Source: Streptomyces sp. TLI_146 (lineage in GTDB: Bacteria; Actinomycetota; Actinomycetes; Streptomycetales; Streptomycetaceae). From it: a DNA stretch of 64,000 nucleotides. Below are positions 29,643-32,860 of the stretch, in pieces; positions within the stretch are counted from its first letter, which is position 1; every line of letters begins with the position of its first letter. The stretch covers positions 2,294,001-2,358,000 of the forward strand of contig NZ_PJMX01000001.1 in assembly GCF_002846415.1 (NCBI RefSeq), in the 5' to 3' direction. Position numbers and translations under genes: made by a program. The notes below the pieces were generated by a model. It worked only from the letters and a program-made list of their open reading frames with translations, was not told where the DNA came from and did not search any database.

Positions 29643-30074
29643 CTAGGCGTCCCGGCGGAGGCTCGGCTTGAGTTCCTTGAAACGGGCCAGCAGCCCGTTC
29701 ACGAAGGCCGGGGAGTCGTCCGTGGAGAACTCCTTCGCCAGCTGCACCGCCTCGTCGATGACGACGGCGTCCGGCGTCTCGTCCTCCCAGACGAGCTCGT
29801 ACGTCCCGAGCCGCAGGATGTTCCGGTCGACGACCGGCATGCGGTCGAGCGTCCAGTCGACGGCGTACGTGGAGATCAGGTCGTCGATCCGCGCCACATG
29901 CTGCGCGTACCCCTCGACGAGCTGCATCGTGTACTCGTTGACCGGCGGCTGACGGTCGTCGGACCGCGAGTGGCGCACCCAGTCCGCGAGGACCGTCTGC
30001 ACGGACTCGCCGCGCTGGTCGGCCTCGAAGAGGATCTGGAAGGCGCGCTTGCGCGCCTTGTTCCGGGCAGCCAC
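29643..30074 (-). CDS. nusB: Transcription antitermination protein NusB
   Basis: 143 residues from a GTG two bases after the efp stop. With NusE (S10) it binds boxA RNA to keep RNA polymerase processive on rRNA operons. The all-helical fold is shown by ARNKARKRAFQILFEADQRGE, WTLDRMPVVDRNILRLGTYEL and the C-terminal VIDEAVQLAKEFSTDDSPAFVNGLL. It is coupled to efp, so translation and rRNA transcription factors share a transcript. Confidence 0.96.
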   Translation of the reverse strand: MAARNKARKRAFQILFEADQRGESVQTVLADWVRHSRSDDRQPPVNEYTMQLVEGYAQHVARIDDLISTYAVDWTLDRMPVVDRNILRLGTYELVWEDETPDAVVIDEAVQLAKEFSTDDSPAFVNGLLARFKELKPSLRRDA

Positions 30075-30701: not shown

Positions 30702-31808
30702 CTAGAGCGCGAGCAGTTCCTTGGTCGTAATGGTGAGTAGCTCTGGCCCGCCATCCGCCTCGGGGCGGACGACGAGCGTGTCATCGATTCGGACACCACC
30801 CCGGCCCGGGAGGTGGACCCCCGGTTCGACGGTGACCGGCACGCAAGCGTCCAGTTTACCCATGGCTCCAGGTGCGAGCTGCGGGTCCTCGCTGATTTCG
30901 AGGCCGACGCCGTGTCCGGTGCACGCTCCCAGGCCCTCCGCGTGGCCCGCCGCGTCCAGCACCTGACGCGCCGCGCGGTCCACCGCACGGTACTCGGCGC
31001 CCGGCGCCAGGGCCTCCCGGCCGGCCCGCTGAGCGGCGAAGACGACGTCGTACAGCTCGATCTGCCAGTCGGCGGGAGTCGTCCCGATGACGAACGTACG
31101 GCCGATCTCGCAGCGGTAGCCGCGGTAGGTGGCGCCGAGGCAGACGGAGAGGAAATCTCCTTCCTCCACCCGTCGGTCGGAGGGCCGGTGGCCGCCGCGG
31201 CCGGAGTTGGGGCCGGTGCCGACGGAGGTGGGGAAGGCGGGGCCGTCGGCGCCGTGGTCGACCAGACGGCGCTCCAGCTCCAGGGCGAGGTGGCGCTCGG
31301 TGCGGCCGACGAGGATCGACTCCAGGAGCTCACCGAGCGCCTGGTCGGCGATCTCGGCCGCGATGCGCAGACACGCGATCTCCTCCTCGTCCTTGACCAG
31401 CCGCTTCTGCTCGACCGCTCCCCCGAGGTCGCCGAGGAGCAGCCGGGGCGCGACCGAGCCGATCGCCCGGTGCCGGGCGACCGTGAGGTCGTGCTCCTCG
31501 ACGCTCAGCGAGTCGGCGCCGCTGGCCTGGGCGAGGTCGGCGGCGGCGACCGCGGGGTCGCCCGAGGGCGTGGGCAGCACGGTGATCCGCAGCTGCTCGT
31601 CCAGCCGCCCCTCGACGAGGTCACCGGTGGGCGTACGGGGGCAGAGCAGGACGTCCTCGGCCGGGCCGAGCAGCAGGACGGCGCCGGGCGGGGCGCCGCC
31701 CGCGAGATAGCGGACGTTGGCGGGGCGGGAGACCAGGGCCGCGGCGCTGCCCGTGGCGGCGCAGCGGTCCTTGAGCCAGCCGCGGCGGAGCCCATACACC
31801 TCTGACAT
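30702..31808 (-). CDS. M24 (Xaa-Pro peptidase) family protein with a degraded active site
   Basis: 368 residues, with the creatinase-like N-domain and pita-bread C-domain of aminopeptidase P/PepQ. Compared with active members the metal site is altered: the first Asp (in xDFGA) is Cys in [11 protein letters not shown], the second Asp (SDITRT) is Glu in RCEIGRTF, and the last Glu (RIEDD) is Asp in VRIDDT. The metal His of GHGVG and the Glu of VEPG remain, but the catalytic His of E-H-E is Ser (EISED). The protein may be inactive or bind another ligand. Conserved position next to efp suggests a role connected with proline-containing peptides, which is speculative. Confidence 0.85.
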
Positions 31809-31886: not shown

Positions 31887-32789
31887 CTACCAGCTCGGCG
31901 GGCTGGCGATCGCCCTCGCCAGGACGTCGTCCAGGAGGCGGGCCGTCGTGGGGACGTCGTACTGGGAGTTGTCGATGATGGGGAGGCCCGAGCCGTACCA
32001 GCCCGCCATGCGGCCGTGGATGCCCGCGACCTCCTCGTCGGAGAGGCGGCGGTTGCCGGACCGTTCGGCGTTGCGCTCCAGGACGATGTCCAGGCCCGGG
32101 AGCAGGACGACAGGCAGCAGGCCCGGGCCCACGTGGCGCTTCCAGCCGCCGAGGCCCACCACCGGGCGGTCCGGGAAGACGGCGTCGTCGAGGATGCAGG
32201 AGATGCCGTTGGCCAGGAAGTTGCGCGCGGCGAAGCCGCAGGTGCGGCGGGCCAGGCGGTACTGCGCCTCGGAGTGGTCGTTCCAGCCCGACTGGGGGTC
32301 GGCGAAGCCCGCGCAGACCCATTCGCGCACGTCGTCCAGGCTGATGTGGGCGGTGGGGACGCGGCGGTGCTGGGCCCAGTAGCGGGCGACCGTGGTCTTG
32401 CCCGCGCCCGCCGGGCCTATGAGCAGCACCGCGAGCGTGGTGACCCCGGTGCCCTCCGGGGCCTGCGGCAGCGGCACGGGGCCGCCCGGGGGCAGCTGGA
32501 CGTGCCCCGTGGTGTCCCGGGAGGGCGGCGCGTGCCAGCCCGGGGCCGTCGGCGGCGCGGGCGGCGGGCCGGGGACGGGGGGCGGCTGGGCGCCGTGGGC
32601 GAGGGGCTGGTGGGCACCCGGCGCCACAGGAGCCTGGGCCGCGGGCTGGTGGGCGCCCGGCGCCACGGGACCGGCCTGGGCCACGGGGCGGGCCACGGGC
32701 TGGTGGGGGGCGACGAAGGCCCAGTCGGGCCCCGCTCCGTGCCCCGGCGCGTGGGGCGGCGGAAGCGGCGCTCCCGCTTCGTGCTGCAT
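31887..32789 (-). CDS. P-loop kinase-like ATP-binding protein with Pro-rich N terminus
   Basis: 300 residues from an ATG at 32789 (GGAG nine bases before; a TTG eight codons earlier has no ribosome site). Residues 1–115 are Pro/Ala/Gln-rich, with VAPGAHQP occurring twice, probably disordered. Then a zeta-toxin/polynucleotide-kinase-like AAA_33 fold: P-loop LLIGPAGAGKTT at 122–133, SLDDVREWVCAG, a helical segment ARRTCGFAARNFLANGISCILDDAVFP (split here), and an Arg-rich lid ERNAERSGNRRLSDEEV. Probably phosphorylates a small molecule or nucleic acid end; substrate unknown. It lies between aroQ and the M24-like gene. Confidence 0.8.
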   Translation of the reverse strand: MQHEAGAPLPPPHAPGHGAGPDWAFVAPHQPVARPVAQAGPVAPGAHQPAAQAPVAPGAHQPLAHGAQPPPVPGPPPAPPTAPGWHAPPSRDTTGHVQLPPGGPVPLPQAPEGTGVTTLAVLLIGPAGAGKTTVARYWAQHRRVPTAHISLDDVREWVCAGFADPQSGWNDHSEAQYRLARRTCGFAARNFLANGISCILDDAVFPDRPVVGLGGWKRHVGPGLLPVVLLPGLDIVLERNAERSGNRRLSDEEVAGIHGRMAGWYGSGLPIIDNSQYDVPTTARLLDDVLARAIASPPSW

Positions 32790-32860
32790 CCGGTGCCACT
32801 CCGTCTCGTACAAGGCAACTGGCGCTGTTCCGACGCCCGTCGGAGGCGTCCGGTCCAGAA

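Follow-up and report, generated by a model that had tools for sequence, protein, structure and literature searches.

The gene beside efp in Streptomyces sp. TLI_146 raises the question of whether a protein with the fold of an Xaa-Pro peptidase is still an enzyme. The earlier note on the window, that is, on the whole stretch of 64,000 nucleotides analysed here, had read this gene as a full-length M24 relative with three altered metal ligands and a lost catalytic histidine, possibly a pseudoenzyme with a regulatory or binding role. The evidence assembled below favours, with a probability of about 0.62, a clade-wide pseudo-prolidase, the di-metal site of which would have been lost once and the protein kept since for a non-peptidase job as a binding protein.

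Catalytic Site and Predicted Fold

The open reading frame extends exactly from an ATG at position 31808 along the minus strand to 30702 and encodes 368 aa (Table 1), and all motifs quoted in the earlier note, VRIDDT included, are found in it. Both expected domains are matched above the cut-off, PF00557 (Peptidase_M24) with E = 4.2e-51 and PF01321 (Creatinase_N) with 1.2e-7, which places the protein in the M24 fold family and agrees with the description of the gene as full length. At the level of individual enzymes, the NCBIfam cut-offs were reached neither for archaeal PepQ (162 of 630 bits) nor for PepP (70.5 of 465 bits). A promoter and terminator scan returned no candidates.

The assignment of the catalytic positions was obtained from alignments with solved structures of real prolidases, in which C223, E234 and D342 lie opposite Asp, Asp and the last Glu, and S306 lies opposite the second His; H207, H299 and E328 are kept. 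The three altered metal ligands and the lost catalytic histidine are therefore placed as the earlier note had proposed. For the active Xaa-Pro peptidases of the PepQ class (MEROPS M24B), the five metal ligands are D, D, H, E and E, and the window protein has C, E, H, E and D at these positions; the equivalent of the catalytic His243 is present (H207), and that of His361 is replaced (S306). Three further changes accompany those already described: G206 breaks the HH pair, His replaces the canonical Tyr at position 332, and neither of the N-terminal motifs FxGS and TDxRYxxQ remains.

Table 1. Position of the genes, codons and motifs discussed in the text, in window coordinates.
Feature	Position	Strand	Length or remark
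nusB	29643..30074	(-)	
efp, elongation factor P, PGKGP loop	30077..30643	(-)	188 aa
M24 pita-bread protein, altered catalytic site	30702..31808	(-)	368 aa
Asp342 codon, place of last ligand Glu406	30783..30785	(-)	
His332 codon, newly near-fixed	30813..30815	(-)	Tyr in all canonical rows
Glu328 codon, kept ligand	30825..30827	(-)	
Ser306 codon, place of catalytic His361	30891..30893	(-)	
His299 codon, kept ligand of GHG motif	30912..30914	(-)	retained in 164/173
Glu234 codon, place of bridging ligand Asp271	31107..31109	(-)	
Cys223 codon, place of metal ligand Asp260 of E. coli aminopeptidase P	31140..31142	(-)	
His207 codon, place of His243	31188..31190	(-)	retained in 173/173
TDxRYxxQ motif (N-terminal), lost	31620..31640	(-)	residues 57-63
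FxGS motif (N-terminal), lost	31686..31697	(-)	residues 38-41
P-loop (AAA_33) kinase-like gene	31887..32813	(-)	start codon uncertain
Conserved motif TGHVQLPPGGPVPLP in Pro-rich tail of kinase	32466..32510	(-)	

The structure predicted by AlphaFold2 from 20 aligned sequences is a complete pita-bread model with a mean pLDDT of 85.7. The only segments of at least three residues with pLDDT below 50 are 295-313, which corresponds to the altered His loop, and 361-368. The best PDB matches of the model in Foldseek are Xaa-Pro dipeptidases and aminopeptidases, with creatinases also present among the fold matches, and the 16 best of these matches show 27-32% identity to the M24 protein of the window.

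Distribution of the Changed Site

The earlier note had suggested an alignment of Streptomyces orthologues as one check and had stated that normal ligands in close relatives would indicate strain-specific decay. The changes turn out to be conserved: the site is altered in all 24 same-genus genomes of the first draw and in 74 of 74 further named family loci, nearly all of them Streptomyces, and both Asp ligands are lacking in 173 of 173 distinct changed proteins. Strain-specific decay is ruled out by this conservation across relatives. Six other named loci, from Embleya, Yinghuangia and Catenulispora, have the normal set D, D, H, H, E, E. Loci were read in all 17 genera of the family, and 15 genera are changed and two (g7 and g10) keep the full ligand set; these two correspond to Yinghuangia and Embleya, three of the coded rows being identical to named rows over efp and nusB. 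Normal metal ligands are likewise observed in Catenulispora (two named loci), in five loci of the same order, and in every one of the 22 loci read from the phylum beyond the family. These 22 come from the top 30 loci by score in a sample of 198 genomes, of which 168 gave a match; one of the 22, L250, reads Ala at the His243 position.

The M24 gene is found in 391 of the 394 family genomes at E<=1e-50. The three genomes without it are also devoid of efp, which indicates that these assemblies do not contain the locus. Four of the sampled copies, namely L095 (G113), L097/L098 (G123), L107 (G270) and L125 (G380), are broken up over more than one reading frame; if the damage is real and not an assembly error, some genomes can do without an intact gene. 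A plasmid search at E<=1e-40, from which records near the window may be excluded, gave two records, both below 60% identity and neither of streptomycete origin. Four same-order genomes (G028, G032, G033 and G035) are without a close M24 orthologue, their best match lying at approximately 1e-30 to 1e-33.

Residue Conservation in Changed and Canonical Proteins

Residue counts were taken over 173 distinct changed and 33 canonical proteins. The starting sets of 177 and 34 shrank to these sizes once a genome that had been sampled twice (L094/L130) and rows that agree along their final 230 residues were merged. The sets cover non-identical, intact proteins of 340-410 aa in which no position is unread; they are mostly from Streptomyces, so the residue shares describe that sample. 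Among the proteins left out by length is the 444-aa relative L096 (G054), which is longer by about 70 residues immediately ahead of the GHG motif and likewise has a changed site (E, A, H, V, E, Q). As a side observation, the locus named Kitasatospora aureofaciens NRRL B-2183 (L220) falls inside Streptomyces in the efp and nusB tree, and the final 230 residues of its M24 protein are the same as in Streptomyces sp. MH60 (L210); the name is possibly outdated.

Asp occurs at position 223 or 234 in none of the 173 changed rows and at each of them in all 33 canonical ones. The residues found instead are Cys in 122 rows, Arg in 27, Gly in 9, Ala in 9, Ser in 4, Thr in 1 and Val in 1 at position 223, and Glu in 138, Gln in 17, Ser in 6, Ala in 5, Arg in 5, Gly in 1 and Cys in 1 at position 234. 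At the place of the catalytic histidine, position 306, Asp is found in 110 rows, Gly in 31, Glu in 18 and His in 3, and the Ser of the present genome is found in this genome only (1 row). Position 328 is Glu in 158 rows (Gly 11, Asp 3, Gln 1), and position 342 is Asp in 161 (Glu 11, Gly 1), with Glu in 33 of 33 canonical proteins. New residues have become fixed as well: position 332 is His in 168 of the 173 changed rows, in contrast to Tyr in every canonical one, and Gly203 is present in all 173.

The comparison of whole columns leads to the same two-sided picture of a core kept and a catalytic apparatus lost. Of the 77 columns that reach 95% fixation in the canonical proteins, 54 also reach it among the changed ones and 19 drop below half. 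The latter correspond mostly to catalytic residues and to the two N-terminal motifs, and include three metal ligands, the catalytic His, the first His of HGLGHG and one His of the HH pair. Each FxGS and TDxRYxxQ column is fixed in at least 97% of the 33 canonical proteins and kept in at most 8% of the 173 changed ones.

Single Origin and Selection

In a tree of 51 proteins from which the 19 lost columns had been removed, all 35 changed rows form one clade with a support of 100/100. The stem of this clade is long (0.40 changes per column), and for the same tree the program gave a warning that two long branches were joined among the outgroups. A tree based on efp and nusB (65 rows, short search) also needs a single change, at a low branch support of 57. 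Taken together, the trees indicate that the di-metal site was lost once, in the streptomycete ancestor after Embleya and Yinghuangia had split off.

When changed pairs with dS above 0.1 are considered, the 15 closest (dS 0.11-0.22) have dN/dS ratios between 0.06 and 0.35; in canonical pairs of at least 85% identity the ratios fall between 0 and 0.18. Over 4547 changed pairs the median is 0.30, a value that includes ratios at higher divergence, which are unreliable because dS saturates. By these coding-sequence comparisons, the changed M24 gene is under purifying selection. Neutral decay that is still unfinished, or a sequencing or strain artefact, is consequently very improbable: the four split copies and the long stem are what such decay could leave behind, but the gene is present in nearly the whole family, the change is common to loci from 15 genera, and dN/dS in close pairs lies well below 1. 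Collectively, the loss of catalytic residues, the retention of the fold and selection on the gene, the three features by which a pseudoenzyme is recognised, are all found at the sequence level.

Metal Binding and Residual Activity

All four positions of metal site A are occupied by D, E, H or C in 138 of the 173 changed rows, and one metal might therefore bind in most Streptomyces. In the loci read in g8, g9, g15, g16 and g19, Glu328 is replaced by Gly (Ala in one) and positions 223 and 234 carry small or neutral residues, from which it follows that a metal role is not general. The variation at positions 223, 234 and 306, and the Gly at position 328 in several genera, led us to reject a fixed alternative metal site as a general rule.

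The same residues bear on a different reading, in which the protein is an altered enzyme for another reaction, working in Streptomyces proper through a single-metal centre (E234, H299, E328, D342 and perhaps C223) or, without metal and in the manner of creatinase, through His207. This is rather unlikely, although several observations are consistent with it: the composition of site A just mentioned, the recurrence of the set C223-E234-H299-D306-E328-D342 in 95 of the 173 rows, the invariance of His207 together with the near-fixation of His332, and the creatinases among the fold matches. Creatinase is a pita-bread hydrolase that works without metal; its identity to the window protein is 18-20%, and the likeness lies at the level of the fold. 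Against a rebuilt site as a general feature, these positions are A, S, G, R or V in sister genera that share the gene and its locus, and the FxGS and TDxRYxxQ motifs are also lost.

As regards the ancestral reaction, the accessible part of PMC10377022 reports that mutants of E. coli aminopeptidase P at Asp260 or Asp271 are inactive, as is H243A, and the accessible part of PMC5723419 describes H243A of the Pseudomonas enzyme as inactive too. Since the two aspartates correspond to C223 and E234, it is likely that the changed protein no longer cleaves Xaa-Pro peptides. Two observations weigh against the pseudo-prolidase reading, namely the ligand-type residues kept at site A in most rows and the retention of His207, the counterpart of the essential His243, in all 173. 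The genome contains nine M24 matches, the window gene included, and the nearest relative, L001, is PepQ-like with normal ligands; this paralogue could cover Xaa-Pro cleavage. An aminopeptidase P gene of S. lividans was reportedly cloned by Butler in 1993.

The presence of these paralogues also allows for the fold being retained merely as a passive subunit or stabiliser of another M24 enzyme, in a heterodimer with one of the eight other matches. The PepQ-like protein with normal ligands could be such a partner, and a precedent is offered by PID-5, which, in the accessible text of PMC10377022, is proposed to heterodimerise with APP-1. Nevertheless, the nearest other M24 protein shares just 34-39% identity with the window protein, and such a relic is improbable.

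The efp Neighbourhood and the Upstream Kinase

The gene was described earlier as part of a conserved operon beside efp, and both efp and nusB are indeed found in every orthologous locus examined, the canonical ones included. In the window, efp and the M24 gene are 58 bases apart, and the kinase-like gene lies upstream at 78 bases from the M24 gene. Its fold search points to generic small-molecule and nucleotide kinases, with Atu3015 (PDB 1zp6) as the best match, and of the 27 matches up to E = 1 in a PDB sequence search only 1zp6 lies below 0.001.

The kinase gene follows the changed group closely. It is absent within approximately 1.5 kb of ten canonical M24 copies, absent genome-wide from 7 of 7 sampled g7 and g10 genomes (ligands read in 5 of the 7), and absent from all 9 genomes searched in the same order; of the 198 genomes in the phylum sample, 8 carry it, and these 8 share the genus of the window. 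Within the family it is present in 384 of 394 genomes, a count that includes G279, which holds a kinase fragment only and no M24 gene. The ten without it are the seven g7 and g10 genomes, G073 and G230, in which the efp/M24 locus is missing, and G324, a 560-contig assembly in which the M24 gene is present. In the changed genera, 384 genomes contain the M24 gene, and 383 of these have the kinase, the ligands having been read in the fetched loci.

Two apparent signals in this distribution were discarded. Co-loss cannot serve as evidence of a partnership, as G073, G230 and G279, which are without the M24 gene and an intact kinase, are also without efp. The kinase first seemed to be missing nearby in g19, and was then found beside aroQ in both genomes examined: an insert of about 11 kb (L262) or 5 kb (L263) lies between the kinase and the M24 gene, both genes are kept, and the flanking order aroB-aroQ-kinase ... 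M24-efp-nusB is preserved. This separation counts against the kinase as a partner.

The 90 residues preceding the P-loop domain of the kinase are Pro-rich (median 34%), although, given the uncertain start codon, part of this region may precede the true start. At least one PPP is found in the region in 119 of 139 distinct rows, and a TGH motif, usually continuing x-x-LPPGGPV, in 121 of 139. The polyproline runs of the kinase should themselves need EF-P, which is encoded two genes downstream. The gain of the kinase and the catalytic loss are two single events in the same part of the tree and therefore provide no independent evidence of interaction; their co-occurrence may reflect shared ancestry only.

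Proposed Function

The loss of the cutting site in a gene that has yet been kept beside efp probably points to a different, non-cutting job. The M24 fold of active relatives recognises proline at the second position of the chain. His207 and a reshaped pocket have outlasted the cutting centre, and the simplest function that the protein could have retained is to bind without cleaving. In the pseudo-prolidase reading, the ancestral gene beside efp encoded an Xaa-Pro peptidase. The sequences show that its two Asp ligands were lost, along with FxGS and TDxRYxxQ at the N-terminus and, in most rows, the catalytic His, whereas the core of the fold was kept and the pocket remodelled (G203 and H207 in all rows, H332 in nearly all). 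We propose that the remodelled pocket binds a peptide or a protein tail that contains proline and leaves it intact, the protein acting as a sensor or adaptor. The foremost candidate partner is the kinase with its Pro-rich tail; proteins linked to EF-P and a further M24 subunit are others. It is from gene order and co-occurrence that we infer both the binding role and the partner.

A more specific version of this scheme would be a streptomycete-specific module, in which the dead pocket docks the TGH-x-x-LPPGGPV motif of the kinase and the kinase reports on the EF-P-dependent translation of proline runs. Such an arrangement is a long shot. The general binding role of a pseudo-prolidase is the reading retained in the comparison below.

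Comparison with Known Systems

The closest active counterpart is the Xaa-Pro dipeptidase/prolidase PepQ (PDB 3q6d, 1pv9 and 5giu), with which the window protein shares the full-length two-domain pita-bread fold, PF00557 plus Creatinase_N, and from which it differs in the absence of both Asp ligands, the catalytic His and the N-terminal motifs. The canonical efp-linked M24 proteins of Embleya, Yinghuangia and Catenulispora are orthologues with 54-57% identity and the same efp-nusB neighbourhood, and keep D, D, H, H, E, E. These sister orthologues are living controls for the change from enzyme to non-enzyme, of which the locus offers a natural record: it happened once, judging from the trees, in one branch of a model bacterial group and at the EF-P locus. 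The case also warns against the automatic annotation "Xaa-Pro peptidase" in streptomycete genomes.

A literature search, with subscription journals mostly outside its coverage, found no report on a streptomycete pseudo-prolidase, and neither did a search under the S. coelicolor gene number SCO1492. A synteny paper of 2026 names the bldD-nusB-efp block, and none of the terms "M24", "aminopeptidase P", "Xaa-Pro" and "AAA family ATPase" turned up when its main text was searched. Pita-bread pseudoenzymes are known in eukaryotes, according to the accessible parts of PMC11266112 and PMC10377022; the clade-wide bacterial form of this known kind is new.

Two eukaryotic proteins serve for comparison. 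Ebp1/PA2G4, as presented in the accessible part of PMC11266112, combines the M24 fold with incomplete metal ligands and non-peptidase roles, and differs from the streptomycete protein in belonging to the methionine aminopeptidase line. PID-5 of Caenorhabditis elegans is nearer, as a predicted pita-bread pseudoenzyme of the aminopeptidase P line that has lost ligands and would hold at most one metal; the case has been made that it lacks activity and may touch a Pro-rich tail (accessible part of PMC10377022). It carries an eTudor domain and, in the same partial source, has no equivalent of His243, in contrast to the streptomycete protein, which keeps it. Relative to these two eukaryotic cases, the changed M24 protein offers a tractable bacterial pseudoenzyme of the aminopeptidase P type.
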